Assembly (NCBI GenBank): GCA_015501585.1
Contig: JADNRY010000015.1
Location: 62,001-126,000, forward strand
Length of the DNA stretch: 64,000 bases
Direction: 5' to 3'
From: Rhodocollybia butyracea
Lineage: Eukaryota; Basidiomycota; Agaricomycetes; Agaricales; Omphalotaceae
Below are positions 11,001 to 43,404 of the stretch, one piece after another; the stretch's first letter is position 1; every line of letters starts with the position of its first letter. The position numbers and the translations under genes are program-made. The notes under the pieces are model-generated. The model was not told where the DNA came from. It saw only the letters and a list, made by a program, of their open reading frames with translations, and made no database searches.

Positions 11001-11008
11001 AGTACGCA

Positions 11009-11547: not shown

Positions 11548-12558
11548 TCAGAAGGAGCTTACGTCCACGTCACGACGACACAACTCCGATCTGCTGTATA
11601 TTTAGCAAAAAGGCACAGATATACCACCTCGGAAGGAGTTACGCACCCGGATGCCAGAGGAGCATCAGGTCCAGAGAGGTCATCAGAAGGGTTCTCAGTA
11701 AGTTGGCTCCCGGAAACTTGGTTCTCCGCAGCTTGGGTCTCAGGCATTGTCTGGGGCGTTGCCTGGGGCGTTTTTGAATTTGCGTAAAACTTGGTCCTGA
11801 ATTTGTCCCCGAGTTTTCCCCCGGTTTCCTTGGCTTTTGTCGTGAACTTCTTCCAGTGCGTTGTAAGGTCCCGTGCATCCAAAGCGCCATTCACGTCTCG
11901 ACGTTCGAGCGCCGGTCTGCTGTATAATTAGCAAACATAGCAGATATACAACGTAGGAAGAAAATACGCACTCCTCTGAGGATTCGGTGGCACCCTCAGT
12001 AGTGCCGGCGTGCTTTAGGGCGACTTCGTGCCTTTTTTGGATGGAGCCATGACAGCCGGCGCCTCTCATATTGTCTCTAGTCCTCCCCGGCGGAGGCGCT
12101 TGTTCCAGGGGAACTGCGTCCACAGGTTTCTGGGAAACTGGGTTGCCGTTCACAGGCTCCTGGGAAACTGGCTGGTTGTCTTCATGGTGATCTTGCTGCA
12201 GGCTTCCTTGATTATCTCCAGTTTGATGCGTGCGTTGTCCACCCCGTCCGCCCCGTCCGCCCCGTCCACCCTGTCCACCCCGTCCACCCCGTCCACCCCG
12301 TCCACCCCGTTGACGACCGTGTCCACCCTTTCGCCGTTTGAGTCCACTGGATTGACCCTGGGCTACTGGTGGAACCGGTGTGCGAGGTTGACTTGGATCA
12401 AGGTATCTGGTATATGTTAGCAAAACCACATCAATACAAGAAAGTCATACGCACTGGGACAGTGGAGAGTTGTCCCTGCTACCAGCTGGAGCGGAGTAGG
12501 CTTGGAGGGAAACCGCGAGAAGGACAAAGGCAAGCATGCATGGTGTGAAGAACCTCAT
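11548..12558 (-). CDS. secreted modular protein A, RGG-rich, dibasic modules (unit 1)
   Basis: Four exons (minus): 12558-12455, 12406-11972, 11919-11647, 11593-11548; 858 nt, 285 aa; all introns phase 2, 46-53 nt. Exon 1 is a signal peptide (MRFFTPCMLAFVLLAVSLQA, then YSAP). Exon 2 is basic and low-complexity, with a run of GGR units and GGQ, then QPVSQEPV-type repeats. Exon 3 opens RPALERRDVNGALDARD and continues into a Lys-rich helix (LTTHWKKFTTKAKE...). The 46-nt last exon encodes RSELCRRDVDVSSF. The RR pairs are potential Kex2 sites. No known domain is recognised. It is a member of a five-locus family here (A-E). The acceptors read ACAGCAG, so a NAGNAG choice of one residue is possible. 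An identical copy lies at 22706-23716. Confidence 0.8.
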
Positions 12559-17712: not shown

Positions 17713-19377
17713 TCAATTATCTTCAGTCCTCCTCCGACGTCGACATGACCCCGATCTGCTGTATAATTTAGCAAAAAAGGCACAGATATACAACGTTGGA
17801 AGGAGTTACGCACCCGGGAGCCACAGGAGCTTCAGATCCAGAGGCGTCATAACTAGAAGGGCTCTCAGGAAGTTGGCTCCCCGCAGCTTGGGTCCCAGGC
17901 GTTGTCTGGGACGTCTTCGGATTCCTGTGAAACGCGGCCTTGACTTTATCTTTGAGGTTCTGCATGTGTGTTTTAAAATCCGAGCGTGCATCCAAGTCTC
18001 GACCATTGAGGTCCGATCTGCTGAATATTTAGCAAAAAGGCACAGATATACCACGTCGGGAGGAGTTACGCACCCGGACGCCGGAGGAGCATCAGATCCA
18101 GAGAGGTCACCAGAAGGGTTCCCAGGAAGTTGGCTCCCAGCAGCTTGGTTCTCCGCAGCTTGGGTGTTCTGGGGCGTCTTCGATTTCATGTGGAACTTGG
18201 TCTTGAATTTGTCCTTGATTTTTTTCGTGACGTGCTTCAAGTGCGTATGCTCGCGTGCTTCCAAGTCTCGACGACTGAGCTCCGATCTGCTGGAGGTTTA
18301 GCAAAAAGGCATACTACGTCGGAAGGAGAAGGAGGTACGCACTCTGGGTCAAAAGGACCTTCGTAAGAGAGTCTCTTCCCTTGGATCTTCTCCATCTTCT
18401 CCGCCCACTCTCCGTAGTCGCGGGCATCCAAAGCGCCATTCACGTCTCGACGTTCGAGCGCCTGTCTGCTGTATAATTAGCAAAAGAAAAAAAAGTTTTG
18501 ACATATATAACATAGGAAGGAAATACTCACTCCGGTGGGTTAGCTGGCGTTGGGTTAGCTGGCGTTGGGTTGGCTGACGTTTGGTCGTTACCAGGGTTGT
18601 TCTTCGGTGGAATACCCATCTTCGCTTTTAGCTTGTTACCTTGATTCCGCCACCAGCCGCGTGCATCCAAATCCACATGCACGGCTCGACGTTTATACCC
18701 CTCTCTGCTGTATAATTAGCAAATACAGCACAGATATACAACGTAGGAAGAAAATACGCACTCCTCTGATTCGGTGCCACCCTCAGTAGTGCCAACGTGA
18801 TTTGCGGTGAATTTGTGCGCACTCTGGGCGTAAAGGTTCACTGCTGCAGAGCCATGACGGGCAGCTTCCATCATATTTTGTTTAAAACTCCCCGGCGGAG
18901 GTGCATCTTCCGGGTGAGGTGGGTGGCCGCTCGCAGGTTCCGGGGTAACTGGGGGGTGGACGTGCGCAGGTTCCTGGGAAACTGACTGATGGTGACCTTG
19001 CTGGTAATCTTCATGGTGATCTGGCTGGTGGTTGTTTTCACGGTGATCTGGCTGGTGGTTTTCTTCCTGCTGAACTGGCTGGTGGCTTCCTTGATTAGCT
19101 CCAGTTTGAGGCTTGCGTTTACGACCACGTCCACCCCGGCGTCGCCGTTGGAGTCCACCGGTTTGACTCTGGGCTTCTGGTGGAACCGAAGCGACACCTG
19201 TGTGGGGTTGACGTGCATCAAGGGATCTGGTATATGTTAGCAAAATCGCATCAATTCAAGAAGGCCATACGTACTTGGACAGTGGAGAGCTGCCCCACTA
19301 ACAACTGGAGCGGAGTAGGCTTGGAGGGATACCGCGAGAAGAACAAAGGCGAGCATGGATGGTATGAAGTACCTCAT
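17713..19377 (-). CDS. secreted modular protein B, unit 1 copy, frameshift in exon 1
   Basis: Same seven-exon gene as 28868-30532: 19377-19275, 19226-18762, 18707-18531, 18468-18343, 18289-18074, 18020-17814, 17758-17713. In this copy the G run after the signal peptide (VVSG) has four G instead of five, so exon 1 is 103 nt, not 104. The frame into exon 2 is lost unless the base is a sequencing error. The rest is identical to the intact copy by eye. Treat it as a recent pseudogene or a homopolymer artefact. Confidence 0.65.
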
Positions 19378-20641
19378 GATACACTTGTGCTGAAGGAAAT
19401 TGAACAGAGTTTTGTGTGTTCGGGAAGACCAGCTTCAAGAACTTGGGGAAAATGTAGATGAGAGCCAAGCTCGTTGTTGGAGAAGGAAGGATCGTCAATC
19501 CCCTTTATATGAGAGCACACTGCTTCTTAGAGAGTCTTCAATCCGCCAAAACACATAGGAGTGATCAAAACACATAAAAGATAGAAGATAGGAGTGATCT
19601 TGGACTCCACAGCCTACAGGAGCTCACAGGAGACAAGCTGAGCCGAGAGAGCACTACTTAGTGGATGAATGGGAGCTTGATTTCCGTGTACATTCAATGA
19701 ACCAAATGTACTAGGAAATCAACTCACGCAAGGCTTTTTGTGCGAGCTTCCACATCTCTTTCTGCCCTGGGGCCGGACCACTGATTGGATAGAGCCCCTT
19801 CGGAATAATGATGGGCTGTGGTACAACAAACCTTCGTGATGCAGAGGGGAAAACCCTTCCAGGACAATCCCGCCTATACTGTATCCTCTTGTCAGAAAGT
19901 GCATACTTGATGATTGATCTGGAAGATACGAAACAAACGAGTAATCAATGGGGAAGACCCACCGTCAAAGCGGGAAATTGAGAATCGGTGGCAGTGGACT
20001 GATGGGCTGCCGAAAATGGTACAATACCTGAAGCGCCCAGTGATGGCAACGAGCAGTTCACGCCGGAACTCTGACTCTGCCCGGATTCAGTGCCTTTACC
20101 ATGACTTTGATGTGACTTCACTGGCAGGATTTGATGGTACAAATCTGAGTGAACAGTACTACCTTGGCGTATGTATCATACGGAATTCAGTTTCAAAGCT
20201 CCGGAGTCCGTAAAATAGACCTACCGGCTGTGCTTTTTTTTTGCAGTGTAGGTCTGCCGCGGCCCCTGTCTGCCCTTGGACGTGTTGTTCAAAGCTGTCA
20301 TTGTCGCCGGGGGATCAGCGCGCGCACAGGGAACCTACAATGAGTCCTGGAACATGAAGTTTGAGGGTGGGCAAATAGATCATAAATTCATATACTTACC
20401 GTGCATAACTTACTCCCACTCCCCTGGTCATGATGCCCTCCTGAATGAAAGTACTTTTTCGGTGTCAAGCTTGACTCAGCACTCTGGAATACCGTCAACT
20501 TCCCGGTAATATCGGTTGTGGAATTCTCATTTGGGATTCGAGGATAGTAAGGTATCAAAACGGCAGCTTTCTATTTCCTGTTACTTATATTATACAACCA
20601 AGGTTGAGCCAAAACCTTACTTTTCTGCGTGCACTGTCAGT
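19378..20641. other. promoter of modular gene B and unassigned DNA (unit 1)
   Basis: 19490-19620 holds the gene B promoter (TTTATATGAGAG on the plus strand, a diverged AATCCGCCAAAACACATAGG element and a small tandem AGGAGTGATC repeat). 19730-20340 has moderately long frames on both strands but no recognisable protein. 20165-20350 has a small F-box-exon-like scrap next to a T-run/CAG. I see no supportable gene. Confidence 0.4.
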
Positions 20642-22705: not shown

Positions 22706-23716
22706 TCAGAAGGAGCTTACGTCCACGTCACGACGACACAACTCCGATCTGCTGTATATTTAGCAAAAAGGCACAGATATACCACCTCGGAAGGAGTTAC
22801 GCACCCGGATGCCAGAGGAGCATCAGGTCCAGAGAGGTCATCAGAAGGGTTCTCAGTAAGTTGGCTCCCGGAAACTTGGTTCTCCGCAGCTTGGGTCTCA
22901 GGCATTGTCTGGGGCGTTGCCTGGGGCGTTTTTGAATTTGCGTAAAACTTGGTCCTGAATTTGTCCCCGAGTTTTCCCCCGGTTTCCTTGGCTTTTGTCG
23001 TGAACTTCTTCCAGTGCGTTGTAAGGTCCCGTGCATCCAAAGCGCCATTCACGTCTCGACGTTCGAGCGCCGGTCTGCTGTATAATTAGCAAACATAGCA
23101 GATATACAACGTAGGAAGAAAATACGCACTCCTCTGAGGATTCGGTGGCACCCTCAGTAGTGCCGGCGTGCTTTAGGGCGACTTCGTGCCTTTTTTGGAT
23201 GGAGCCATGACAGCCGGCGCCTCTCATATTGTCTCTAGTCCTCCCCGGCGGAGGCGCTTGTTCCAGGGGAACTGCGTCCACAGGTTTCTGGGAAACTGGG
23301 TTGCCGTTCACAGGCTCCTGGGAAACTGGCTGGTTGTCTTCATGGTGATCTTGCTGCAGGCTTCCTTGATTATCTCCAGTTTGATGCGTGCGTTGTCCAC
23401 CCCGTCCGCCCCGTCCGCCCCGTCCACCCTGTCCACCCCGTCCACCCCGTCCACCCCGTCCACCCCGTTGACGACCGTGTCCACCCTTTCGCCGTTTGAG
23501 TCCACTGGATTGACCCTGGGCTACTGGTGGAACCGGTGTGCGAGGTTGACTTGGATCAAGGTATCTGGTATATGTTAGCAAAACCACATCAATACAAGAA
23601 AGTCATACGCACTGGGACAGTGGAGAGTTGTCCCTGCTACCAGCTGGAGCGGAGTAGGCTTGGAGGGAAACCGCGAGAAGGACAAAGGCAAGCATGCATG
23701 GTGTGAAGAACCTCAT
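22706..23716 (-). CDS. secreted modular protein A (unit 2)
   Basis: Exons 23716-23613, 23564-23130, 23077-22805, 22751-22706; the same 285-aa product as 11548-12558, with no difference seen in the coding sequence. Signal peptide, RGG-rich exon 2, one large RRDVNGALDAR module with a Lys-rich helix, and a small terminal RRDVDVSSF exon. Intact in both copies, so dosage has doubled. Confidence 0.8.
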
Positions 23717-24302: not shown

Positions 24303-24320
24303 AGCCGAGCCTAAAGCTGC

Positions 24321-24768: not shown

Positions 24769-24806
24769 CGCGGGAAACCTAAAATGAGCGCTGGAACGAC
24801 GTTGGT

Positions 24807-25381
24807 TCAAGGTTGACTGAAGCTTGAGGATGAGCAGTCTTGGGAGGCCTGGAATTCGGGTTTGCGTGCACGTGGAGCTTCAGTGACATATGTATCATGT
24901 TTGAGATGATTTCGAAGCCAGAGTTGTCCTACAAGCGCAAGCACTGAGATCATCAGATTAGTAGGAAGCGTATACGCAACCAGGCTCCTAATTCTTCGAG
25001 TTGTTGTATACTTGCCAGTTGAAACGGTACCCAATGAAGGCAAATCAACGCTGTGACTGGCAGGTCGTGAGCCAACTCTTAACAAATTATACCGGATGAT
25101 ATGTAGACATGCAAGTGTTGTGGTGGAAGGTTTGACTGAACGTGTGTCCAGTACCACGACAACACAGTGGAGCACTGAGTACTTACCACTTACACTACGC
25201 TGGGATGATAACTCAATAGAGTCCTGATTTAGTAATCTGAGGAGATGAATTCCTTCAGCTTCTGGGCTGGGAACCGGGGACCTGTGACCAAACTTTGCCT
25301 TAAGGCCCATCCACTTCTGTTCAATATCAAGCCCGCGCGCCTCCAAAGCATCCACATCTCGACGACTAAAATCTGATCTGA
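24807..25381 (-). pseudogene. orphan dibasic module exon and relic (unit 2)
   Basis: Duplicate of 13651-14225, with the SRRDVDALEARG module and a lost upstream donor. Confidence 0.5.
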
Positions 25382-26314: not shown

Positions 26315-26419
26315 CCCCTGGTAGTCTATCGGTTAGTACATGCACTTGAAGCATCACGATACTACATGGACCGCTTCTTTAAATGAATTCGAAAGCTGGG
26401 TTCGACTCCCAGCAGGGAT
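26315..26419 (+). pseudogene. tRNA-Asp-like copy, GCACTTGAA subfamily (unit 2)
   Basis: Duplicate of 15160-15264. Confidence 0.65.
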
Positions 26420-26739
26420 TGTGCCACCGCTGGTTGTATTTTTTTACCCCTTCATCCCCGGCGAAGTTTGTTATAGAAGCTATGAAAGTACTTTTTTCGT
26501 AGCAAGCTTAAATCTCCACTCTCTGGCATACAAACTCCCTGGTAACACACTTATAAAGCATCACCTGTGGAATTCTCATCTGCATGCATGCAAAGGATCC
26601 GAGGGAAAGGTATCAAAACCACAACTTTCTGCTTCCTTAAAGATCAATACTTACCTATGATATTGATAATATACCCAAAGTTAAGCCAAAGGCTCACTCT
26701 GCGGCCCCTGCACGCACAACCAGTCTACAATCGTCTCCG

Positions 26740-28315: not shown

Positions 28316-28867
28316 GTAACCTTAATTTGCACAGGTGCGTTATCCGGGTCATCGTTCACCAACGTCGTTTCTTTCTTTCTTCCTTCTTCGATCGCATATA
28401 GGAATATCCTCCACGAAGACATGCTCATAAACCAAGGAAGGGACGGGAACTCAAGGTTCCTGTGATCCTTTCAATGCCGCCGTTGTTGCCCTGTCTCGAA
28501 TCTTTCCCATCGCCTACTTTCCATGCTCAACAAACCCCGTCACTATGTCTGTCCAATGTCCAACTTCCAACCGTGACCGTCCTGCTCATCACTAGCACTG
28601 CTACCCCTGCTATTCATGCAACATTGTTTCTCTTCGGTATCATTCGGACGTCCCCGGTTTTCAATTTCAAGAGCAAGGCGGATGGGTCCACAGAACGACA
28701 CATAAGTGACGTCCACTTACTACTTACACTACGCTAGGTTGATAACTCAATGGAGGAAATACTGGTTTAATCTGAGGAGATGAATTCCTTCAGTGCTTCA
28801 GTCGACTACAATTCGGTATGGTACTATTAGAAACACCTTAAATGGAGCGCAGCTCGCTATCGCGCTA

Positions 28868-30532
28868 TCAATTATCTTCAGTCCTCCTCCGACGTCGACA
28901 TGACCCCGATCTGCTGTATAATTTAGCAAAAAGGCACAGATATACAACGTTGGAAGGAGTTACGCACCCGGGAGCCACAGGAGCTTCAGATCCAGAGGCG
29001 TCATAACTAGAAGGGCTCTCAGGAAGTTGGCTCCCCGCAGCTTGGGTCCCAGGCGTTGTCTGGGACGTCTTCGGATTCCTGTGAAACGCGGCCTTGACTT
29101 TATCTTTGAGGTTCTGCATGTGTGTTTTAAAATCCGAGCGTGCATCCAAGTCTCGACCATTGAGGTCCGATCTGCTGAATATTTAGCAAAAAGGCACAGA
29201 TATACCACGTCGGGAGGAGTTACGCACCCGGACGCCGGAGGAGCATCAGATCCAGAGAGGTCACCAGAAGGGTTCCCAGGAAGTTGGCTCCCAGCAGCTT
29301 GGTTCTCCGCAGCTTGGGTGTTCTGGGGCGTCTTCGATTTCATGTGGAACTTGGTCTTGAATTTGTCCTTGATTTTTTTCGTGACGTGCTTCAAGTGCGT
29401 ATGCTCGCGTGCTTCCAAGTCTCGACGACTGAGCTCCGATCTGCTGGAGGTTTAGCAAAAAGGCATACTACGTCGGAAGGAGAAGGAGGTACGCACTCTG
29501 GGTCAAAAGGACCTTCGTAAGAGAGTCTCTTCCCTTGGATCTTCTCCATCTTCTCCGCCCACTCTCCGTAGTCGCGGGCATCCAAAGCGCCATTCACGTC
29601 TCGACGTTCGAGCGCCTGTCTGCTGTATAATTAGCAAAAGAAAAAAAAGTTTTGACATATATAACATAGGAAGGAAATACTCACTCCGGTGGGTTAGCTG
29701 GCGTTGGGTTAGCTGGCGTTGGGTTGGCTGACGTTTGGTCGTTACCAGGGTTGTTCTTCGGTGGAATACCCATCTTCGCTTTTAGCTTGTTACCTTGATT
29801 CCGCCACCAGCCGCGTGCATCCAAATCCACATGCACGGCTCGACGTTTATACCCCTCTCTGCTGTATAATTAGCAAATACAGCACAGATATACAACGTAG
29901 GAAGAAAATACGCACTCCTCTGATTCGGTGCCACCCTCAGTAGTGCCAACGTGATTTGCGGTGAATTTGTGCGCACTCTGGGCGTAAAGGTTCACTGCTG
30001 CAGAGCCATGACGGGCAGCTTCCATCATATTTTGTTTAAAACTCCCCGGCGGAGGTGCATCTTCCGGGTGAGGTGGGTGGCCGCTCGCAGGTTCCGGGGT
30101 AACTGGGGGGTGGACGTGCGCAGGTTCCTGGGAAACTGACTGATGGTGACCTTGCTGGTAATCTTCATGGTGATCTGGCTGGTGGTTGTTTTCACGGTGA
30201 TCTGGCTGGTGGTTTTCTTCCTGCTGAACTGGCTGGTGGCTTCCTTGATTAGCTCCAGTTTGAGGCTTGCGTTTACGACCACGTCCACCCCGGCGTCGCC
30301 GTTGGAGTCCACCGGTTTGACTCTGGGCTTCTGGTGGAACCGAAGCGACACCTGTGTGGGGTTGACGTGCATCAAGGGATCTGGTATATGTTAGCAAAAT
30401 CGCATCAATTCAAGAAGGCCATACGTACTTGGACAGTGGAGAGCTGCCCCCACTAACAACTGGAGCGGAGTAGGCTTGGAGGGATACCGCGAGAAGAACA
30501 AAGGCGAGCATGGATGGTATGAAGTACCTCAT
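28868..30532 (-). CDS. secreted modular protein B, seven exons, four dibasic modules
   Basis: Exons (minus): 30532-30429, 30380-29916, 29861-29685, 29622-29497, 29443-29228, 29174-28968, 28913-28868; 1341 nt, 446 aa. Every intron is phase 2. Exon 1 is a signal peptide (MRYFIPSM..., cleavage likely near YSAP). Exon 2 carries a polybasic LQRRRRGGRGRKRK and then His/Gln/Asn repeats (NHQPDH type). Exons 3-6 each open with the family core: YKRRAVHVDLDARG, LERRDVNGALDARD, LSRRDLEAREH, LNGRDLDARSD. Exons 5 and 6 continue into Lys-rich amphipathic stretches (THLKHVTKKIKDKFKTKF; FKTHMQNLKDKVKAAFH) and acidic/Pro tails. The last exon is a 46-nt basic tail. RR pairs are candidate Kex2 sites; processing is inferred. 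Function unknown. Confidence 0.82.
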
Positions 30533-31795
30533 GATACACTTGTGCTGAAGGAAATTGAACAGAGTTTTGTGTGTTCGGGAAGACCAGCTTCAAGAACTTG
30601 GGGAAAATGTAGATGAGAGCCAAGCTCGTTGTTGGAGAAGGAAGGATCGTCAATCCCCTTTATATGAGAGCACACTGCTTCTTAGAGAGTCTTCAATCCG
30701 CCAAAACACATAGGAGTGATCAAAACACATAAAAGATAGAAGATAGGAGTGATCTTGGACTCCACAGCCTACAGGAGCTCACAGGAGACAAGCTGAGCCG
30801 AGAGAGCACTACTTAGTGGATGAATGGGAGCTTGATTTCCGTGTACATTCAATGAACCAAATGTACTAGGAAATCAACTCACGCAAGGCTTTTTGTGCGA
30901 GCTTCCACATCTCTTTCTGCCCTGGGGCCGGACCACTGATTGGATAGAGCCCCTTCGGAATAATGATGGGCTGTGGTACAACAAACCTTCGTGATGCAGA
31001 GGGGAAAACCCTTCCAGGACAATCCCGCCTATACTGTATCCTCTTGTCAGAAAGTGCATACTTGATGATTGATCTGGAAGATACGAAACAAACGAGTAAT
31101 CAATGGGGAAGACCCACCGTCAAAGCGGGAAATTGAGAATCGGTGGCAGTGGACTGATGGGCTGCCGAAAATGGTACAATACCTGAAGCGCCCAGTGATG
31201 GCAACGAGCAGTTCACGCCGGAACTCTGACTCTGCCCGGATTCAGTGCCTTTACCATGACTTTGATGTGACTTCACTGGCAGGATTTGATGGTACAAATC
31301 TGAGTGAACAGTACTACCTTGGCGTATGTATCATACGGAATTCAGTTTCAAAGCTCCGGAGTCCGTAAAATAGACCTACCGGCTGTGCTTTTTTTTGCAG
31401 TGTAGGTCTGCCGCGGCCCCTGTCTGCCCTTGGACGTGTTGTTCAAAGCTGTCATTGTCGCCGGGGGATCAGCGCGCGCACAGGGAACCTACAATGAGTC
31501 CTGGAACATGAAGTTTGAGGGTGGGCAAATAGATCATAAATTCATATACTTACCGTGCATAACTTACTCCCACTCCCCTGGTCATGATGCCCTCCTGAAT
31601 GAAAGTACTTTTTCGGTGTCAAGCTTGACTCAGCACTCTGGAATACCGTCAACTTCCCGGTAATATCGGTTGTGGAATTCTCATTTGGGATTCGAGGATA
31701 GTAAGGTATCAAAACGGCAGCTTTCTATTTCCTGTTACTTATATTATACAACCAAGGTTGAGCCAAAACCTTACTTTTCTGCGTGCACTGTCAGT
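30533..31795. other. promoter of modular gene B and unassigned DNA (unit 2)
   Basis: Duplicate of 19378-20641; no gene recognised. The TATA-like TTTATATGAG at 30659 and the CCGCCAAAACACATAGG block at about 30698 belong to the gene B promoter. Confidence 0.4.
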
Positions 31796-33547
31796 CTACG
31801 ATCGTCTCTGAAATAATCGTAACTTTCCGAGCCACTTTCTTCCCTTCACAGTGTCCACACCAACCCTCTCATTCTCAATATAAACCCTCACATATCTGAG
31901 CACATCGCGTCTAACAGTCAAAAAACCCTTCACTGATGCACGAAGCTGTCGTGGGAGCACCTGTAAAAGCACCGATGGATTGTCCCAAGTAATGTCGATT
32001 GGTTTGAAAGTGAGTTTTTCAAGATTGGGGAGTGAGGTAGGTATCAGGTGGAGGAGGAGATGCTGTTGAAGGGAAGTCAGCATCAACTCAGCATACTATA
32101 TGTACTAGGGAGGTTTGCATCGACGAGTAGGTAGTCCCAATGGAGAATATACATAGGGAAGACATGACATACCGCAGGGTTGATCAGCTTCTCATCCACA
32201 TCAAGGTCATTATCCACTTCAGAAACATTCGAGGCCTCTGGGTCTTGATCAAGCCCTCTTGAACTCACAACAATCAAGAGAGTCTGTAATCTCCTACATC
32301 TCCGGAACACCTCAGCATTTTTCCGGCTAAAACACCATTCGCCCTCATAATCCGGCGTGATTTCCATTTTAACAAGCGTATCTGTGTGCTTTGGAAGTGT
32401 ATACTTGTAGAACGAGTCCCCAGAGCCTGGTTGCCAATTTCCTCTGAGCGAAAGAGTTTCCAACCCAGAGTAAGAAGTGATATACCGCAACAGCGAGTCC
32501 GTAGTCCGAAACGACACAACCAGGCTGCGCAGATGGATCTGCTCGAGAGAAAGCGTGTCCCATAAGCTATTGAATGCATCGTCTCGGAATGAAAATGGGT
32601 GATTGAAGATATGCGGGTTATTGTACTCGATGAGTTCTCCGAGCTCAAGCGATTGAAGGTTGGAGTAAATGAGACGTGGGACCTGCACTACCCATCCGTT
32701 CAATCCTAGATTGCAAATCTGGGGCGCGAGGGGGACATCTAACCAGGTAGGAGCGCCGAGACGGAGCAATTGAAGCGTCTCGAGATGAGGGGCAGATGAA
32801 ATGATGGGGAGGAGGTTTTGAGGGACGAATCTCCCTTCAATGGATAATACCTGGAGTGCATGAAGAGGTGGCAGGGGGAATGGGGTAGCGCGAGGTGAGG
32901 AATTATGGAATGTAAATTCTTTGAGGTTGCGAGGGCTACCTGGTGTGGATATTGACGCCAGAATAACAGTAAAGGCCCATTCAAGATCTCTTCCCTGGTG
33001 CCAGCGCCATCTAAAGAGTCGCATGTGCAAAATAAGTTCCGCAAAGAGAGAAAGAAGTATATTGGTAATATACTCACCGAAGCGTATCTAAATTATGCAA
33101 AGATATCAACGCAGGCCCGAGGAGCAACCGTATCTTTTTCTCCGCTGAAGATACAGATCTAGACCGTGACCTTTTTCCAGGTTCAAACTTAGAGCTGGTG
33201 TATGAAGGACAAAGAGAATCAATATATAGTGTTCGAATGACCTTGGACACAGATCGACCGTGTGGGATCTGCCCGACGCGCGTGTCTTTCTCGAGCGCCT
33301 TCAACAAGCCGATCCCGACCTTCAAGTTACCCGAATGGATATTGAGTGTTACTTCCGCAAGGACGTGCGGCTGAAAGACTTTTCCAAACAAGGTACACGT
33401 CCGACGAAGCCTCTTCCTGTCTTCAAGTCTAGCTGTCTGTATCGGGAGTGGTTGAGTCCGGAACTTGAGCTGGAGAGTTCCCTATGATAGAGCATTCACC
33501 TCGTTACCGATGTTGTGCATGACCTCAAGCGGAAGGGACATCATCAT
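31796..33547 (-). CDS. F-box and leucine-rich-repeat protein, 503 aa
   Basis: Four exons: 33547-33500, 33436-33078, 33010-32173, 32062-31796; 1512 nt. The N terminus is an F-box (MMMSLPLEVMHNIGNE, spliced to ARLEDRKRLRRTCTLFGKVFQPHVLAEVTL), the usual Skp1-binding layout of LPxEV...L..LR.TC..F. The rest is a run of irregular LRRs (LQVLSIEGRF, LETLQLLRLGAP, LQSLELGELI, LRSLVVSF, LETLSLRGNW, LQTLLIVVSS). Such proteins act as substrate adaptors of SCF ubiquitin ligases and are expanded in Agaricomycetes; the substrate is unknown. Intron 1 was placed because the unspliced frame hits a TAG, and a GTGAAT...GATACAG intron restores it. The last exon ends in a basic tail (KWLGKLRLFQRRS). Exons 3-4 are duplicated at 20642-21655. 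Confidence 0.85.
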
Positions 33548-33787
33548 GGTCGGCGAAAGCTGTTACAGCCAGGCATTGTTGCCGGATCAGCGCACGCGTC
33601 TAAAACGAGCGCTGGAACGTCTAAGTACGCTGGTCTACGCTGTTACTGGCAGATCATGAGCCATAATTACACCAAATGATACGTAGATGTGCAAGGATAA
33701 TGTGGTTCAAGACAACTTAAGCTAACTGAACATGTATTCGGCACCGTGGGCTGACCATGAGGCGTTCCCAACCACAAATTGCAATGG

Positions 33788-33917
33788 TCCACTCGGAGAC
33801 GCTCGTTCACGCAGCTATCATGGACAGATCATGGATAGTATTGGAATTGTCGGATACCGAACCTATAAAGGCTTCTTCAAGTGAATGCGAACGCTGGGTT
33901 CGACTCCCAGCCACTGG
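33788..33917 (+). pseudogene. tRNA-Asp-like relic, 5' part lost
   Basis: Only the anticodon region (GCAGCTATCATGG) and the T arm with 3' strand (GCTGGGTTCGACTCCCAGCC) remain. The 5' acceptor and D arm are gone. Confidence 0.65.
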
Positions 33918-34187
33918 CAAGGTGTAAACCGACGTTAGTGTCCAATCAGCTGTCTTTGTCACCCCGTTGTGTATTATGCACAATCTAGGATAGGTTTGCT
34001 GCCATGCTAGCATGGTACTAGCTTTCTAATTAGTAAAAATTAGTTTTGTGTAAGTACTAGTATGGGTAAAAGGAGAAACAGGAGGCCTTGGATTCATGGC
34101 CAGGCTGAGGAAGTCATAGACCTGGATGTACGACTACATTATTCAAGAGAATGGTCTTCTCATCAACTTTTCATAGCATATAACAAC

Positions 34188-34288
34188 CCCCTGGTAGTAT
34201 ATCGGTTAGTACACGCAGCTATCATGACCAGTTTGAACCTTCTTCTTCAAGTGAATGCGAAATCTGGGTTCGACTCCCAGCCGGGGGT
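34188..34288 (+). pseudogene. tRNA-Asp-like copy, CAGCTATCAT subfamily
   Basis: Acceptor has changed on both strands to CCCCTGG/CCGGGGG (compensated), D and T arms are good. The anticodon stem CGCAG against ATGCG mismatches and the loop reads CTATCAT (ATC). This is the best preserved of its subfamily. Confidence 0.7.
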
Positions 34289-34651
34289 GTGAGATTTGAA
34301 CATTTGACGACTGATCAGCTGCTGCAGCCAAGTCTGTTCTATATTTTTGTCGCCCCTGAGGTTGTTGATTGTGCGCGAGTCCAGGAGTTTTTTCTGTGCT
34401 GGCATGGCACTCGTAGCTTTTAAAGGTTATGGGGAACAGTTTGGATAAAAAGAGAAGTGGGAGACTTTGGACTCATGCCTTTGAGAAAGTCATCAAGGAA
34501 GTCACCGAGGAAGTCATAGAATCTTTCAGTCTCCAGGCCCAATGTGGCTACACGAGTGGGATTGTGAGTATAAGCAGATTAAAGTAGGTTAAATTCCCCC
34601 GTACCATGTATTAGACAGTATTTTCGTAGCTTGTTCGTAGCATATAAGCAA

Positions 34652-34757
34652 CCCCTGGTAGTGTATCAGTTAGTACGCGCACTTGAATATGATCACGATA
34701 CGTGGACCGTTTCTTTAAATGAATTCGAAAGCTGGGTTCGACTCCTGGTAGCAGGAA
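34652..34757 (+). pseudogene. tRNA-Asp-like copy, GCACTTGAA subfamily
   Basis: Shares anticodon arm and insert with 15160-15264. The 3' acceptor strand is rearranged (TCCTGGTAGCAGG). Confidence 0.65.
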
Positions 34758-35048
34758 TTATATGGAGACCAAGTTCTTTTTTTACCCCCTTCAGCCCTGG
34801 CGAGGTTTATTATAAAAACTATGAAAGTACTTTTTAACTTTTTTCGTGTCAAGCTCGAATTGCCACTCTCTGGCATACCAACTTCCCGGTAACATGGGTT
34901 ATGGAGTTCTCATTTGCACGTAACGGGATCCGACGGAGAGGTATCAAAACCGCAACTTTCTGCTTCCCGCTAGTACTTAAAAATTAATAACTTACTTATG
35001 TTATTGATAATATAGCCAAAGCCTCACTTCCCTGCGCGCACAACCAGC

Positions 35049-36814
35049 CTACGATCGTCTCCGAAATAACTGCAACTTCCCAGGCCACTTTCGTTTCTTC
35101 ACAGCGTCCACGCCAACCCTCTCATTCTCCACATAAACCCTCACCCACCTGAGCACAAGCTCGCGTCCGAGTCTACTCATCTCAGAGCCATCGCCCGCAG
35201 TCAAAAAGCTCTTCACCGATGCACGGAGCCGTCGTCGTATCACTAGAGAATGCTTCGATGTGTTTTCCCAAGTAACATCGATTGGTTTGAACGTGAGTTT
35301 TTCGATATTGGGGAGTGAGGTTGATATCAGGTGGAGGAGAAGATGCTGTCGAAAAGAAGTCAGTATATTATACGTACTAGGAAGTTTTCATTGCCAAGTG
35401 GACCCAGTCCCACTGGAGAATATACATAGGAAAAGCACATACCACTGGGTTTATTAGTATCTCGATCGCGTCGAGATCATTATCCATTTCAGAAATATTC
35501 GAAGCCTCTGGGTCTTGATCGAGCCCTCTCGAACTCACCACAATCAAGAGCGTCTGCAATCTCCTACATCTCCGGAACACCTCAGCATTTTTCTCTCTAA
35601 AACACCATTCGCCCTCATAATCCGGCATGATTTCCAACTTAACAAGCGTATCCGCGTGCTTTGGAAGTGCATATTTGTAGAACGAGTCCCCAGTCCCCGG
35701 TTGCCAATTCCCTCTGAGCGAAAGAGTTTCCAACCCCGAGTAAGAGGTGATATACCGCAACAACGAGTCCGTAGTCCGAAACGACACAACCAGGCTGCGC
35801 AGATGGATCTGCTCGAGAGAAAGGGTGTCCCATAAGCTATTGAATGCATCTTCTCGGAATGAGAATGGGTTATCGACGATATGCGGGTTGTTGTACTCGA
35901 TGAGTTCTCCGAGCTCGAGCGATTGGAGGTTCGAGTGGATGAGACGTGGGACCTGCACTGCCCATCCGTTCAGTCCTATATTGCAAATCTGGGGTGTGAG
36001 GGGGACATCTAACCAGGTAGGAGCACCGAGACGGAGCAATTGAAGCGTCTCGAGATGAGGGGCAGATGAAATGATGGGGAGGAGGTTTTTGGGGACGAAT
36101 TTTCCTTCGATGGATAATGTCTGGAGTGTGTGTAGAGGTGGTAGGGGGAATGGGGTAGCGCGATGTGATGAATTATGGAATGTAAATTCTTTGAGGTTGC
36201 GAGGACTACCTGGTGTAGATATTGACGCCAGAATAACAGTAAAAGCCCATTCAAGATCCCTTCCCTGGTGCCAGCGCCATCTAAAGAGTCGCATGTGCAA
36301 AATAAGTTCCGCAAAGAGAGAAGTATACTCGGTAATATACTCACCGAAGCGTATCTAAATTATGCAACGATTTCAACGCAGGCCCAAGAAGCAACCGTAT
36401 CTTTTTCTCCGCTGAAGATACAGATCTAGACCGTGACCCGTTTCCGCGTTCAAACTCAGAGCTGGTGTATGAAGGACAAAGAGAATCAATATATAGCGTT
36501 CGAATGACTTTGGACACAGATCGACCATGTGGGATCTGCCCGACGCGCGTGTCTTTCTCGAGCGCCTTCAACAAGCTCATCCCAGCCTTCAAGTTACCCG
36601 AATGGATATTGAGTGTTACTTCCGCAAGGACGTGCGGCTGAAAGACTTTTCCAAACAAGGTACACGTCCGACGAAGCCTCTTCCTGTCTTCAAGTCTAGC
36701 TGTCTGTATCGGGAGTGGTTGAGTCCGGAGCTTGAGCTGGAGAGTTCCCTATGATAGAGCATTCACCTCGTTACCGATGTTGTGCATGACCTCAAGCGGA
36801 AGGGACATCATCAT
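35049..36814 (-). CDS. F-box and leucine-rich-repeat protein, 513 aa
   Basis: Paralogue of the 31796-33547 gene with identical exon phases: 36814-36767, 36703-36345, 36280-35443, 35345-35049; 1542 nt. F-box MMMSLPLEVMHNIGNE plus TARLEDRKRLRRTCTLFGKVF; LRRs follow (LETLQLLRLGAPTWLDVPL, LQSLELGELIEYNN, LRSLVVSF, LETLSLRGNWQPGTGDSF). Exon 3 is 838 nt in both genes. The C terminus is about 10 residues longer (insert GDGSEMSRLGREL) and ends KWPGKLQLFRRRS. Most differences from the paralogue are scattered substitutions, so this is an older duplication than the 11.8-kb event. Likely SCF ubiquitin-ligase adaptor; substrate unknown. Confidence 0.85.
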
Positions 36815-37230
36815 GGTCGTTGTTCAAAACTGTTACGGGACGTCGTCGCCGGATCAGCGCGCGCGCGCGCGGGAAAACCTAAAATGAGCGCCGGAACGGC
36901 GTTGCCTGAAAATGAAGTTTGAGGCTTCTTGAGTCGGGGATCGGTACCGGTTACTCTACGCTGGGTTGATCACTCAATAAAAAGAGTCCAGGTTTAACCT
37001 AAGAAGATGAATTCGTTCAACACTTCAGTCAACTACAATTCAGTACGGTACTCAGAAACCCAAAACTAAGCGTAGCTCCGTTCCACATTCCGTCCTCTCT
37101 AATCTTCTCACTTCATGAACGAGGCCGCTGTAGCATCCATTCTCGGATTAACGTGTAGTCTCAGAGGAGGGCAGTAAGCCAGAGGCGGGCCACTGAGGGA
37201 TCAGATGAGGATTGATCGGTGGATCCAGCT
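36815..37230. other. intergenic, F-box promoter and 3' flank of modular gene C
   Basis: Contains a GCGCGCGCGC run at about 36857 and the shared 3' flank of the modular family (TTGATCACTCAATAAA, CTACAATTCAGTACGG). The block CTGTAGCATCCATTCTCGG is shared with the gene D flank at about 39060. No gene. Confidence 0.5.
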
Positions 37231-37703
37231 TCAGGCATTCGTCGCATCGTCTACAAATCCGCGTGCTTCCAACACATCCGAGTCTCGACCACTGAGCTCC
37301 GATCTGCTGTACATTTAGCAAAAAAGGCATACAACGTCGGAAGGAGATACGCACCCCGGGTCAGAAGGACCTTCGTGATATGGATGTGGTCTCTTCCCTT
37401 GGATCTCGTCCATCTTGGCTGCCAACTCGTCGTATACGTCGCGGGCATCCAAAGCGTCATTCACGTCTCGACGTTCGGGCGGCGGTCTGACGTATAACTA
37501 GCAAAAAAAGCATTGGCATATAACGTAGGAAGCAAATGCACGAGATATACCTTATCGTTACCAGGGCTTCCCCTCGGTTCCATCGCATTTCTGTAGTTGT
37601 CACCTCCCTTGTGCAACCCCCTGCGAATAATTGGAGCGGAGGAGGCTTGGAGGGAAACCGCGAGAAGAACAAAGGCGAGCGTGGATGGTGTGAAGTACCT
37701 CAT
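37231..37703 (-). CDS. secreted modular protein C, shortest member (126 aa)
   Basis: Exons 37703-37542, 37497-37355, 37306-37231 give 381 nt. The signal peptide (MRYFTPSTLAFVLLAVSLQA) runs directly into SSAPIIRRGLHKGG without the usual exon 1/2 intron, so a signal exon and a module exon seem fused by deletion. Exon 2 carries PPPERRDVNDALDARD and then ELAAKMDEIQGKR. Exon 3 carries RSELSGRDSDVLEARGF. The open frame requires the first acceptor to be GCTAG, made from the ancestral branch-point motif GCTAAT; the normal ...TCAG acceptor would cause a stop. The donor could also be GTATAT nine bases upstream (123 aa). If neither is used it is a pseudogene. Confidence 0.6.
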
Positions 37704-39158
37704 GATGAACTTGTGCTGATGGAAATCGAAAAGAGTTTCGTACGTTCGGAAAAACCAGCTTCAAGAACTTGGGGGAAAGAGTGTAGATGAGAGACCAGCT
37801 CGTTGATGGGGAAGAACCTGGAAGGACCGTCGATCCCATTTATATAAGAGTATATTGTTTCTTGGATTTGCAATCAGCTAAAACACGTAGGAGTGATCTT
37901 GATATATGCCACAGGACTCCACAGGAGCCGAGCCTAAAGCTGCCCTGGTCCTGCCTAAAGCTGCCTAGAGCCTCCAAGAGCAGCCTAGAGCTGAGCCGGA
38001 AGCTGAGCCGAGAGAGCGCTAAGGGGAAGGCCCGGGGCCGGGGGATGTGGATTGAATGGGAGCTTGGGAACTTGCAAAATTCAAGTTTCAAAGCTCCGTA
38101 AAATAGAGGCCCAGGGTATAGCCTGGTATAGCTGTGCTTTTTGCAGGGTGGGTAGGACCAGGTCTGACCTGCTCTGCCCCGCGCGTCTTTTTCGATCGCC
38201 TTCAACGAGCTGACCCCAGCCTTCAGATTCGGATTACTCAAATGGATATTGAGCGTAACTTCCGCAAGAGCGTGCGCCTGAAAGGCTTTGCCAAAGCACA
38301 GGTCCGACAGAGACTCTTCCTGTCTTCAAGCCTAGTTGTCTGTATCGGGCGAGTCCGAGCCACGGAGCTTCAGCTGGAGAGAGCATTCACCCAGAATTCA
38401 CCCCGTTACCGACCTTGTGCATGAGCTCCAGCGGAAGGGACATCATGGTCGTTGTTCAAAGTTGTTACACGCGCGCGGGAAACCTAAAATGAGCGCTGGA
38501 ACGTCCTTAGTTGACTGAAGCTTGAGAATGAGCAGTCTTGGAGGCTTGGAATTCGGGTTTTCGTGGAGCTTCAGAGACATATGTATCATGTTTGAGATGA
38601 TTTCGAAGCCAGAGTTGTCCTACAAGCGCAAGCACTGAGATCATCGGATTAGTAGGAAGCGTATGCGCAACCAGGCTCCTAATTCTTTGAGTTGCTGTAT
38701 ACTTGCCAGTTGAAACGGTACCCTATTAAGGCAAATCAACGCTGTGACTGGCAGGCCTTTTAACAAATTATACCAAATGATATGTAGACATGCAAGTGTT
38801 GTGGTGGAAGGCTTCTTGACTGAACGCATGTCGAGCACCACAACACAGTGGAGCGCTGGCGCACACTCCAGTACTTATCGCTACCGGTTACTATATGCTG
38901 GGTCGATCGCTCAATAGAAAGAGTCCAGGTTTAACCTAAGTAGATGAATTCCTTCAACACTCAGTCAACTACAATTTGGTACGGTACTCTCACACCCAAA
39001 ACGAAGCGTAGCTCCGTTCCAGATTCCATCCCTAGTCCTCTCACTTCATGAACGAGGCCGCTGTAGCATCCATTCTCGGATTAATATGTAATCTCAGAGG
39101 AGGGCATTAAGCTAGAGGCGGGCACTGAGTACTGAGGGATCGATCGGTGGATCCAGCT
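37704..39158. other. promoter of gene C, F-box relic, shared flanks
   Basis: 37839-37846 TATA-like element and 37865-37898 conserved upstream block of gene C. 38137-38446 (minus) is a decayed copy of F-box exons 1-2. 38560-38830 is a decayed copy of the hydrophobic relic also at 13660-13990. 38890-39158 is the 3' flank of gene D. No intact gene. Confidence 0.55.
38137..38446 (-). pseudogene. F-box gene 5' fragment relic
   Basis: Starts MMSLPLELMHKVGNG and resumes TTRLEDRK after a degraded intron, then breaks. No LRR exons follow. Confidence 0.65.
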
Positions 39159-40364
39159 TCAGGCATTCATCGCGTCGTCTACAAATCCGCGCGCCTCTAA
39201 CGCATCCGAGTCTCGACCACTGAGCTCCGATCTGCTGTATATTTAGCAAAAAGACATACAACGTCGGAAGGAGATACGCACCCCGGGTCAGAAGGACCTT
39301 CGTGATGTGGTCTATTCACACCTCGACGAGAGACCGGGATGACGCTGATCCCTGGTCTGCTGTATAATTAGCAAAAAAGCATTGACATATCACGTAGGAA
39401 GGAAATACGCACGCCGATGGGTCAGCTGGCGCTGCGTTGACTGGCACTGGGTTGGCTGACGATGAGAGAAATACCCTACCGTTACCAGGCTCGTGCTTCT
39501 TCCCTTGGATCCCGTCCCACCACTCTTGGGCTTTCGACGGGCTGCGTGCATCTAAGGCATGCATATCTCGACGATTGAACTCCGATCTGCTATATTATTA
39601 GCCCAAAAACATAGTGATACAATGTGGGAAGGAAATACGCACTCCTCTGCAAGAGGCGTAGTGAATGCATCAATTTGTTCGGCGATCTGGCTCGCCCCTT
39701 TGAAGGCATGATACAAGGTTTTCTTCGCATATTTTCTAGTATCTCCCGGCTGGCGCTGTGCAGCTGTTCCCTGAGAAACTGGCTGGCCGGAGATTTCAGC
39801 TTGTCCCTGGACGTCGACTGGCTCGTGGGCTGGCCGGTTGACTTCATGGTGAACTGGCTCTTGAACTGGCTGGTTGGCTTCATGGTGAACTGGCTCCTGA
39901 ACTGGCTGGTTGGCTTCATGGTGAACTGGCTCCTGGACTGGCTGGTTGGCTTCATGGTGAACTGGCTCCTGGACTGGCTGGTTGACTTCAGGGTGGACTG
40001 GCTGGACTGGGTGGTTGACTTCAGGGTGAACTGGCTGGTGGACTGGCTGGTTGACTACATGGTGAACTTTCGGCTTGCGTGTTTTGCGATTAGGATTTCT
40101 ACCTCGACTTTTTTTCTTTCGTCGTTGGAGTCCACCGGTATGACTCTGGTCTACTGGTAGAACCGGGGCGCCTGCAGGCACACCTGTGTGGGGTTGACTT
40201 TCATCGAGGGAGCTGCTGTATGTTAGCAAAACCGCATAAATACAAGAAGGCCATACGCACCGAGACGCCAGAGAGAGGGCCCTGCGAGGAGCCGGAGCGG
40301 AGTAGGCTTGGAGGGAAACCGCGAGAAGAACGAAGGCAACCGTGGATGGTGTGAAGTACCTCAT
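39159..40364 (-). CDS. secreted modular protein D with 11-residue QPVQEPVHHEA repeats
   Basis: Exons 40364-40261, 40215-39643, 39589-39413, 39359-39282, 39234-39159; 1008 nt, 335 aa, all introns phase 2. Exon 1 (104 nt) is the family signal exon. Exon 2 starts LDESQPHTG, has a basic RRKKKSRGRNPNRKTRK patch and then QPVHPEVN and about four near-perfect QPVQEPVHHEA repeats. Exon 3 opens FNRRDMHALDARS and contains EWWDGIQGKK. Exon 4 has VSRRGVNRPHHEG. Exon 5 has LSGRDSDALEARGFVDD. The RR pairs recur at module starts. Conserved promoter block at 40509-40540. The opposite strand has a long hydrophobic WLVGFMVNWLL frame that is only an echo of the repeats. Confidence 0.82.
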
Positions 40365-41406
40365 GATAAACGTGTGCTGACGGAAATTGAAAAGAGTTTC
40401 GTGCGTTCGGAAAGACCAGCTTCAAGAACTTGGGGGAAAAGAGAGACCAGCTCGTTGTTTAGGGGGAAGAACCTGGAAGAACCTGGTACTTAGTATATTT
40501 GTTTCTTGGATTTGCAATCAGCCAAAACACGTAGGAGTGATTTTGATATATTATCGCCACAGGTGACAGGACTCCACACAGGAGCCGAGCCTGGCCGAGA
40601 GAGAGATGGATTGGAAGCTTGGGAGCTTGGCGCCGATTATCACATATCGGTAAAATTGAAGCCAGGGTATAGCTGTGCTTTTTTTTGCAGTGTAAGTAGG
40701 ACCAGGGAGGTGTGGGTCTGCCCAGTATCTGCCCGACCCGCGCGTCCTTTTCGATCGCCTTTAACAAGCTGACCCCCGTTGACCCCAGCCTTCAGATACA
40801 GATTACCCAAACGGATATTGTGATTAACCTCCGCAAGAACGTGCGGCTGAAAGACTTTGCCAAATCAAGCACCCGTCCGACGGAGACTCTTCCTATCTTC
40901 AAGTCTACTACTAGCTGTCTGTATCGGGCGTGTCTGAGCCACGGAGCTTCAGCTGGAGAGTTCTCTATAGAGCATTTACCTCGTTACCGATCTTGCGGAT
41001 GAGCTCCAGCGGAAGGGACATCATCATGACCAACGCAAGGTTGTTATAGGACATTGTCGTTGGATCAGCACTCGCGCGGGAAACCTAAAATGGCGTTGGT
41101 TGACCGAAGCTTGAGGATAAGCAGTCTTCCTTGGAGGCTTGAAATTCGGGTCCGCGTGGAGCTTTAATGGCATATGCATACCCTAGCTTTATGTTCGAGG
41201 TGATTTCGAAGCTACAAGCGCAAGCACCGAGATCATCAGAAAGCGCTTAGCGTATGTGCAACCACGCTCTTAATTTTTCGAGTTGCTGTCTGTTGCTGCA
41301 TAGTTGCTACTTGGAACGGTACCCTAAGAGGGAAAACCAACGCAGGTCGTGAGCCAACTCAAAACAATTGTGACAGATATGTGCCAGTGCTGTGGTGGAA
41401 GGCTTC
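40365..41406. other. promoter of gene D, F-box relic
   Basis: The conserved upstream block is at 40509-40540. 40690-41030 (minus) is a decayed F-box exon 1-2 fragment. 41110-41398 is the decayed hydrophobic relic seen at 13660 and 38560. No gene. Confidence 0.5.
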
Positions 41407-41850
41407 AGGACCCCTGATTATGAGTGGACAACCTAGATAAGCAACCCTCCGGATCTGGCCATTTTTGTCCGAACAAATTTTGGCTGAATCCACCCAATTT
41501 TGTCCGAATTTTTTACCTAGGTTCAGTCGGGGTCTGATTTTTGTCCGAACTTTTGCGTTTAGCCTCCCGGAGCCTCCCCAGGCTTCAAAAATCGCTTTTT
41601 TGAACGTCGCACAGCAGGTGGACGCCAGCCAAAGCCATATCAGACTATGTAATAATCAGTATAGATCCTCACCTTCGCTTCCAAAAGGTCAAAAACTGGT
41701 CAAAACTAGGCCTTTTTGTCCGAAAATCCGCTTAGGGTTCCCGCCTACGGCGGTCCTTTTTGTCCGAACCTATATCCAGGTTTTGCTGAAAATCAGGCCC
41801 ATTTTTGTCCGAACTCTTATCTAGAATGTCCACCTATAATCAGGGGTCCT
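41407..41850. mobile_element. AGGACCCC-type MITE, 444 bp
   Basis: Inverted ends AGGACCCCTGATTAT plus a further 18 bp with few mismatches, and an exact 8-bp target duplication AAGGCTTC at 41399-41406 and 41851-41858. The related unoccupied locus near 38806 reads GGTGGAAGGCTTCTTGACTG, confirming the ends. Interior motifs TTTTTGTCCGAAC recur in both orientations. No coding capacity. Confidence 0.88.
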
Positions 41851-42102
41851 AAGGCTTCTTGACTGAACACCACGAGGGGTTGGCAAAAGCGGAGCATTAG
41901 CGCGCACTGCCAGTACTTTCCATTTACGCTGGGTCGATAACTCAATACAGTCCTTATTTAATCTGACAAATTCAATCAACTTAGAACTACAATTCGGTAC
42001 GGTACTCTTCGAAACGCCTATAATGAAACGTAACACCATTCCACATTCGTTACATCTAGTCCTCTCACTTCATGGACGTGGACCATAGCATCCATTCTCG
42101 GA

Positions 42103-43213
42103 TCAATAGGCGGAGGTATCAGTTGGAGAAGTTAAAGACTGAGACGGATCAGTCGCAGAAGTTGAAGGTTTAGGCTTGCCGAAGATTGCGTCCCGGAGGC
42201 TGTCCATTCTTTCTCCGCGTGCCTCCAAAGCACCCAGGTCTCGACGACTAGCCCCGATCTGCTGTTTATTTAGCAAAAGGCACAGATATAGCACATCGAA
42301 AAGAGATACGCACCCGGGCACCACAGGCGAGGTGGTTGATCCTGCCTCAGATTGCTCGCTTGCAAATTCCCCCGCAGCTTCATTCTCCGCAGGTAGGGTC
42401 TCAGGCGTCTTCTCAGGTGCCGTTGTCTTCTCAGTTGTCGTCGTCGTCTGCGGGTTCGAGTGAAGCTTGTCCATGAGTTTTTTCCCCGCGGTCTTGGCTG
42501 CTGCGTGGGCCTTCTGCAGGTGCGCCTTGAGGTCACGGGTATCCAAGTCTCGATGATGAATCTCGAATCTGCTATATAATTAACAAAAAGGGATAAATAG
42601 ACAACGTCGGAAAGCAATACGCACCCAGCAGGACCACCAGAGGTACCGTCCGTACCGTCCCGCATGTTCTTGGGCATAAAGATATTTTTGGCATCCTCCT
42701 CGGCCTTATTGGCTCGACGTTGGGACCTCGATCTGTTGTATATTAGCAAACAAAGCATAGACGTTCAACGCAGGAAGAAAATACGCACCCCTTCGGTTGG
42801 GAAGTGTCAATGGCCGCATTGGGTGCACCAGCGGCATCGAGCCCGTGCATATCTTCTGCAGACTGTTCCTGCGGATGGCCGAGTGCAGCGGGGACCGGGG
42901 GAACACCATTATTATCTTGAGGGTCACCTCCAGTGGGATGATGATGATGATGATGATGATGATGAGGAGGACCTCCAGTGTGAGCATGAGGACCGTGTTC
43001 ATCTTGCTGGGGGATGCTCGCGGGAACGGCTACAGGCACACCTGGGGTTTGATCGAGAGGTCTGCTCTAGGTTAGCAAAACGGCATAAACACACGAAAGT
43101 CATACGCACGGGGACGCTGGAGAGTCGCCCTTGCCAACAACGGGAGCGGAGTACGCTTGGAGGGAAATCGCGAGAAGAACAAAGGCGACGGTGGATGGGG
43201 AGAAGTATCTCAT
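42103..43213 (-). CDS. secreted modular protein E with nine-His run
   Basis: Exons 43213-43110, 43064-42789, 42732-42625, 42571-42314, 42247-42103; 891 nt, 296 aa. Exon 1 (104 nt) is the signal exon (MRYFSPST...). Exon 2 has PHAHTGGPP, nine consecutive His and PTGG, which could bind metal. Exon 3 opens SQRRANKAEED. Exon 4 opens IHHRDLDTRDLKAHLQKAH and has the Lys-rich helix and a Thr/Glu/Pro tail. Exon 5 opens RRDLGALEARGERMD. The last exon lacks one base relative to the family (GGGGCTAG for GAGCTCAG). The frame and the RRD core are kept only if the new CTAG is used as acceptor instead of CAG. TATA-like element at 43335-43342. Confidence 0.75.
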
Positions 43214-43342: not shown

Positions 43343-43404
43343 AGAGTATATCAGAGTATATCGTTTCTGGGATTTGCAATCAGCCAAAACACGTCGGAGT
43401 GATC

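Follow-up and report, generated by a model that had tools for sequence, protein, structure and literature searches.

Introduction

Kex2-processed repeat proteins (KEPs) are known from Agaricomycetes (PMC6339444; PMC7329392; PMC9769878). Rhodocollybia butyracea, a forest-litter decomposer whose genome annotation was improved by RNA sequencing (PMC8480192), has a reported KEP homologous to one from Lentinula and different from the proteins considered here (PMC9769878). The motifs given for Kex2 are KR or RR and an expanded LxxR, with Leu favoured at position P4 (PMC8528282). The stretch of DNA analysed (the window; 64,000 nucleotides (nt) of contig JADNRY010000015.1, here C439, in the 95.6-Mb, 1,381-contig genome of R. 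butyracea) carries a family of genes with small symmetric exons, many of which open with a core of the form RRD...L(D/E)AR. Among animals, the micro-exon genes of schistosomes and the 'bicycle' genes of aphids encode secreted, fast-evolving proteins from small symmetric exons, and the bicycle proteins carry Cys-Tyr-Cys motifs.

The family probably makes secreted peptide precursors. The best reading, given a probability of roughly 0.47, is that its products are polyproteins that would be secreted, cut by Kex2 at the module starts and diversified by exon duplication. An earlier note on the same DNA had proposed an exon-modular family of secretory peptide precursors; the exon-modular, putatively secreted character and the symmetric phase-2 exons were recovered, and that proposal as a whole is partly supported.

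Gene models and exon architecture

The minus-strand genes were modelled anew, and their splice sites were picked by hand from common donor and branch/acceptor motifs. The architecture was read directly from the DNA, and the window family was found to comprise five genes, A to E, the same loci that the earlier note had listed:

22706..23716, minus strand: gene A; exons 23716-23613, 23564-23130, 23077-22805 and 22751-22706.
30532-28868, minus strand: gene B, rebuilt model with a long open frame of 446 amino acids.
30429..30532, minus strand: gene B exon 1, putative signal peptide, 104 nt.
29916..30380, minus strand: gene B exon 2, Arg/Gly/Lys-rich and then His/Gln/Pro-rich, 465 nt, phase 2-2.
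29685..29861, minus strand: gene B module exon 3 (KRRAVHVDLDAR), 177 nt.
29497..29622, minus strand: gene B module exon 4 (ERRDVNGALDAR), 126 nt.
29228..29443, minus strand: gene B module exon 5, SRRDLEAR and a cationic helix, 216 nt.
28968..29174, minus strand: gene B module exon 6, NGRDLDAR and a cationic helix, 207 nt; tandem copy of exon 5 together with its intron.
28868..28913, minus strand: gene B terminal exon, 46 nt in the rebuilt model; another donor and frame in the deposited model.
37200..37703 (low end approximate), minus strand: degenerate gene C, in which the signal exon runs straight into a tail resembling exon 3 and the frame is broken.
39159..40364, minus strand: gene D, 335 amino acids; exons 40364-40261, 40215-39643, 39589-39413, 39359-39282 and 39234-39159.
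42132..43213, minus strand: gene E; exons 43213-43110, 43061-42789, 42732-42625, 42571-42314 and 42261-42132.

The common signal-peptide exon is 104 nt long in A, B, D and E, as noted before, and ends in phase 2. Its product starts MRYF..LAFVLLAVSLQAYSA and was judged by eye to look like a typical signal peptide. It is followed by a gene-specific exon 2 and then by small exons, separated by introns of 45-62 nt that mostly begin with the donor GTGCGTA and end in TTGCTAA...AG. Internal exons measured 435 and 273 nt in A; 465, 177, 126, 216 and 207 nt in B; 573, 177 and 78 nt in D; and 273, 108 and 258 nt in E. In three paralogs of a second cluster, F, G and H (described below), they measured 174 and 63, 165 and 63, and 164 and 60 nt, respectively. 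All 15 internal exons of A (2), B (5), D (3), E (3) and F (2) are phase 2-2 and divisible by 3, and with the decayed G and H included 18 of 19 are phase 2-2, gene C being excluded from the count; the earlier statement that the small exons are all phase 2-2 was borne out within this set. Of the module numbers proposed at the same time (A 2, C 2, E 3, D 3, B 4-5), those for C and E are affected by frame breaks. Cysteine is scarce in the family proteins and absent, for example, from D.

Three family members are deposited as hypothetical proteins of R. butyracea; two match window genes (P0001, gene B; P0002, gene E) and the third, P0003, is F. P0001 reproduces exons 2-6 of gene B in order and frame, with acceptors offset by 3 nt, and corresponds to the B copy whose exon 1 is one base shorter. 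Where the acceptor reads CAGCAG, the deposited models splice at its second AG, and their donor for the last intron lies 4 nt downstream of that in the rebuilt models. The start of the signal peptide differs as well, with the first residues missing from P0001 and an N-terminal extension present in P0003. No name or description of the family was found in titles or abstract starts of the literature on symmetric exons in fungal secreted proteins, basidiomycete exon shuffling, exon duplication with Kex2 or R. butyracea itself (closed-access papers fall outside this coverage), in agreement with the earlier note, which had tentatively regarded the family as unnamed. Judged from the sequence, this exon-modular, apparently unnamed and lineage-restricted family is real.

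Exon duplication is directly visible. Exons 5 and 6 of gene B are tandem duplicates that include an intron (28906-29196 versus 29167-29465, 78.6% identical). Symmetric exons, as the earlier note had pointed out, permit shuffling. Exon 3 of gene A is chimeric, with a head like B exon 4 and a body like B exon 5. With up to 3 mismatches allowed, a word spanning an intron end and a module start matches the genome 15 times, and each match is on C439 or the redundant contig C1215 (control, 0). One module lies loose in the window:

25240..25377 (ends approximate, near 25364), minus strand: stray module (RSDFSRRDVDALEARGLDIEQKWMGLKAKFGH...), with no signal exon nearby; a copy lies near 14208.

Module core and candidate Kex2 sites

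A six-frame search of the window for the pattern [RGH]RD-x(0-8)-L[DE][AST]R, composed after the modules had been inspected, gave 16 hits, every one of them on the minus strand (11 when the 10.66-kb repeat described below is counted once; 5 lie in its first copy). In twenty first-order Markov simulations the mean was 0.05 and the maximum 1. The earlier claim that most modules open with an RRD-x-ALEAR-like core agrees with these counts, with the 78-nt exon of D and the 108-nt exon of E as modules lacking the full core. Eleven module pieces chosen for bearing the core (9 from the window and 2 from the second cluster) were aligned; the alignment contains neither the stray module nor gene C, and it lacks exon 4 of D, exon 3 of E and the last exons of A and B. 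In these selected pieces LxxR was present in 11 of 11, and the fully invariant columns were an Arg within RRD together with the two residues, Leu and Arg, that define LxxR. Exon 3 of gene B reads RRA at the core, and in F and G the LxxR sits one exon after the RRD exon.

Since RR and LxxR are both Kex2 motifs, and LxAR fits LxxR, the core RRD...L(D/E)AR forms a double candidate site and may be a double Kex2 processing site. In silico cutting of five proteins (P0001, P0002, P0003, A and D) showed repeated dibasic sites in all of them. The genome contains one match to P_proprotein (PF01483, Kex2-type; C1:267644-267925, E = 1.3e-20), so that a candidate Kex2 is present in the species, as for the KEPs.

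Predicted structure and similarity searches

An AlphaFold2 model of P0001, built from an alignment of 3 sequences, with which a fold could be missed, had a mean predicted local distance difference test score of 50.6 and a predicted template modelling score of 0.24, and showed isolated helices in a mostly low-confidence, coil-like chain. Helices at residues 182-212, 256-273, 282-314 and 359-383 correspond to one per module exon 3-6; the remaining ones are the signal helix and two short helices in exon 2. Means over ten-residue blocks reached 90 only in exons 5 and 6. Comparison of this low-confidence model with the PDB returned 2 weak matches, none at E ≤ 0.001, and a Pfam scan of B, D and E gave nothing over the curated cut-off.

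Proposed mechanism

Secretion, cleavage and function, as we infer them, would proceed as follows. The precursors would enter the secretory pathway, where the Kex2 of the fungus would cut at or near the start of each module, at RR|D and/or L(D/E)AR|x. Several different peptides would be freed, the most distinctive being basic, helix-prone segments of about 20-30 residues joined to Pro/Gln/Ser-rich linkers, and these would have their effect outside the hypha, most probably on or against other leaf-litter organisms. Because a module and its cut-site core occupy one phase-2 exon, duplication, fusion or loss leaves the frame unchanged, and the peptide set could therefore change fast while promoter and signal exon stay conserved.

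A stricter form of this proposal, a tentative possibility, is an exon-cassette system in which each symmetric exon would supply its own double Kex2 site and one helical peptide. Duplicating, fusing or skipping an exon would then add, merge or remove one peptide and leave the rest undisturbed. If the modules are indeed cut out, the gene structure would itself be the mechanism of diversification, with one exon for one peptide and one set of cut sites.

Second cluster and selection

Among the new findings are a second cluster with the same architecture and the contrast between a conserved signal exon and promoter and fast-changing modules. Contig C772 carries genes F, G and H at 305.8-317.5 kb, and C980 and C1362 carry further versions; the signal exon of the three genes is recognisably the same. 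Gene F has a signal exon of 83 nt followed by exons of 174 nt and 63 nt, the latter phase 2-2. Over 302 codons the versions of F on C772 and C980, which are probable haplotypes, show about 31.5 non-synonymous differences and 30.5 synonymous ones (ratio of non-synonymous to synonymous divergence, pN/pS, 0.31; Fisher p = 6e-6 on rounded counts). The reading frame stays open across indels, repeat-unit indels (KSDKP) occur in a Lys-rich stretch, and the 63-nt module exon is identical. There is purifying selection between the F versions.

Among paralogs, pooled pN/pS (from pairs that are not independent) was 0.33 for the signal exon (7 genes), 0.84 for module cores (8 modules), 0.93 for module bodies (A3, B5 and B6) and 0.85 for exon 2 (A, B and D). 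Secreted peptide families commonly keep export and regulation while the payload changes. Introns were less diverged than neighbouring exons in six chosen comparisons (p = 2.7e-6 to 0.058; 41 piece pairs computed overall), splice motifs contributing to intron conservation and gappy exon 2 alignments perhaps overstating divergence. Exceptions were introns 4 and 5 of B, which differ by 36%, and intron 1 of B versus E, at 25% more diverged than exon 1 (20%).

Upstream element

The promoter-proximal sequence is partly common to A-E, F and G, and a 23-base element recurs before several of the genes:

40519..40541, plus strand: element before gene D (CAGCCAAAACACGTAGGAGTGAT, read on the plus strand).
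43381..43403, plus strand: element before gene E, 1 mismatch.
37875..37897, plus strand: element before gene C, 1 mismatch.
30698..30720, plus strand: element before gene B, 2 mismatches.
19543..19565, plus strand: element before the second copy of gene B, 2 mismatches.

With as many as 3 mismatches allowed, the element has 8 sites in the genome, 3 of them on the redundant C1215, and all stand before B, C, D or E (reversed control, 0).

The 10.66-kb repeat and other features of the window

Genes A and B lie in a 10.66-kb tandem repeat, whose copies, 11001-21657 and 22159-32811, align over 10,658 columns without a substitution and with 6 single-base gaps. It would be either a very recent duplication or an assembly duplicate. 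The earlier note had counted duplicates of its loci; A and B do recur, and since both duplicates lie in one near-identical segment they are not independent evidence for the family. The further copies are:

11548..12558 (ends by offset from copy 2), minus strand: second copy of gene A.
17713..19377 (low end by offset), minus strand: second copy of gene B, with exon 1 one base shorter.

Immediately before the first repeat copy lies a 656-bp mobile-element-like insert (10345-11000) with terminal inverted repeats and an 8-bp target duplication, and its empty site is present before the second copy, near 22159. A duplicated gene-like family (20761-21657, 31915-33598 and 35198-36865; 79-90% alike) stands among the precursor genes; none of its open reading frames (20932-21615, 32086-33030 and 35380-36300) matched a Pfam family at E ≤ 0.01. 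Between genes D and E, an element of repeated TTTTTGTCCGAAC-like words was seen by eye at 41450-41840. Three short units at 33890, 34260 and 34740 share the tRNA-like word GGGTTCGACTCC and are perhaps a tRNA-derived short element; ARAGORN, run with the bacterial code, reported no tRNA in the window. A gene-like stretch at 44479-45495, which by eye looks like a membrane protein of the Mpv17/PMP22 type, has a second, shorter-looking copy at 49748-50419, with 82-89% DNA identity in pieces.

Alternative explanations

Several observations weigh against a reading of the family as Kex2-cut polyproteins, and they are given here with the alternatives. Asp at P3, which LDAR carries, is unfavourable for Kex2 (PMC8528282), and GR or HR replaces RR in 3 of the 11 aligned modules. 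The core lies inside or overlaps the predicted helix in three of the four P0001 modules (B exons 3, 5 and 6) and precedes it in exon 4. The first and last of these points would suit proteins that are secreted and remain largely intact as disordered, wall- or matrix-associated chains, RRD...LEAR being a helix-start or interaction motif and not a cut site, as would the His/Pro/Gln repeats in D exon 2 and the His runs in E and F. This alternative is nevertheless judged unlikely: the invariant residues are the very ones needed by an LxxR site (in pieces chosen for the core), and all five proteins cut in silico have recurrent dibasic sites.

Other observations concern the integrity of the family. 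Both computed models of gene C break frame. The last exon of gene E is out of frame with canonical splicing and clean in neither the window contig nor the near-identical C1215, where the last module begins in frame and shifts again inside the module, with gaps in the preceding exon; deposited P0002 attains the frame of this module through another donor. C1215 was also considered as an independent allele and rejected, since 107 of the 7,576 aligned columns are gaps and 10 are mismatches. The frame breaks in C, in the last exon of E and in one copy of B may be assembly error or decay. Genes G and H run into early stops. Upstream of A, F, G and H, a search tolerating as many as 3 mismatches did not recover the 23-base element. 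Protein searches, in which the filter needs shared 5-residue words and one search scored the best 7,994 candidates, returned no homologs outside R. butyracea. The pN/pS near 1 of the window modules also fits relaxed constraint.

Much of this is what would be expected of a decaying or non-functional lineage-specific family, in which recent duplicates drift neutrally and the core is kept by recent copying of exon-intron blocks: the module ratios, the broken C, G and H, the unclear last exon of E, the stray module, the introns less diverged than adjoining exons in the six chosen comparisons and the lack of homologs outside the species in these searches all point that way. Such decay is considered distinctly improbable, since F retains its frame with a pN/pS of 0.31 between C772 and C980, the signal exon is constrained (0.33), B and D keep long open frames (446 and 335 amino acids) and the 23-base upstream element is common to B, C, D and E.

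Most doubtful are secreted effectors acting inside the cells of another organism, with the Arg/Lys block of exon 2 and the basic module tails as nuclear-targeting signals, for which the basic blocks (QRRRRGGRGRKRKP in B, RRKKKSRGRNPNRKTRKPK in D, RGG repeats in A and PKKKSWSQKVKAVFKKK in F) and the fast change of the modules would speak, but the species is listed as a forest-litter decomposer (PMC8480192) and these blocks are themselves rich in dibasic sites.

Amphipathic antimicrobial helices were considered separately as a product of the genes. When hydrophobic moments were compared with shuffles, 3 of 12 segments, one of them a module body, reached p < 0.05 uncorrected, and antimicrobial function is therefore not claimed; this result, too, belongs among the points that count against the polyprotein reading.

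Comparison with known systems

The family resembles the KEPs in its putative signal peptide, its recurrent Kex2-type sites and the presence of several candidate peptides in each precursor. It differs from them in that the modules are not near-identical repeats and mostly occupy separate symmetric exons, and in that the core adds LxxR. In a simple test of our own, distinct from the published KEP pipelines, the five proteins were cut in silico at KR, RR, KK and RK, and at least 3 near-identical fragments were found in none of them. The best fragment pairs were identical at 15 of 47 and 10 of 20 positions, and one trio in P0001 above a low score line of 30 (6/22, 8/22 and 15/47 identities, 27-36%) is far from near-identical. 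The family may thus work like a KEP without the near-identical-repeat feature, as tested here. KEP surveys seek similar repeats between dibasic sites and would probably miss precursors of this kind. Searching instead for symmetric exons that open with RR...LxxR could reveal more hidden secreted peptides of mushrooms and show how a peptide mixture evolves.

With the K2PP effectors (PMC8528282) the family shares RR and LxxR as Kex2 motifs. In K2PP effectors RR/KR or LxxR follows a disordered stretch, a feature matched here by the LxxR of all 11 module pieces chosen for the core. Those effectors shed a single N-terminal pro-domain to yield a mature protein, whereas here the sites recur along a mostly low-confidence, coil-like chain. 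Precursors of dikaritins, ribosomally synthesized and post-translationally modified peptides of the ustiloxin type, combine a signal peptide with dibasic sites, as these proteins putatively do; a dikaritin reading was dropped, UstYa/DUF3328 (PF11807) having 18 matches in the genome and 0 on C439. The organisation is similar to that of the micro-exon and bicycle genes of animals, with no kinship, and the proteins differ in being cysteine-poor. Should the exon-cassette form apply, the family would represent a new, taxonomically narrow class of precursor standing between the KEPs and the animal micro-exon effectors.

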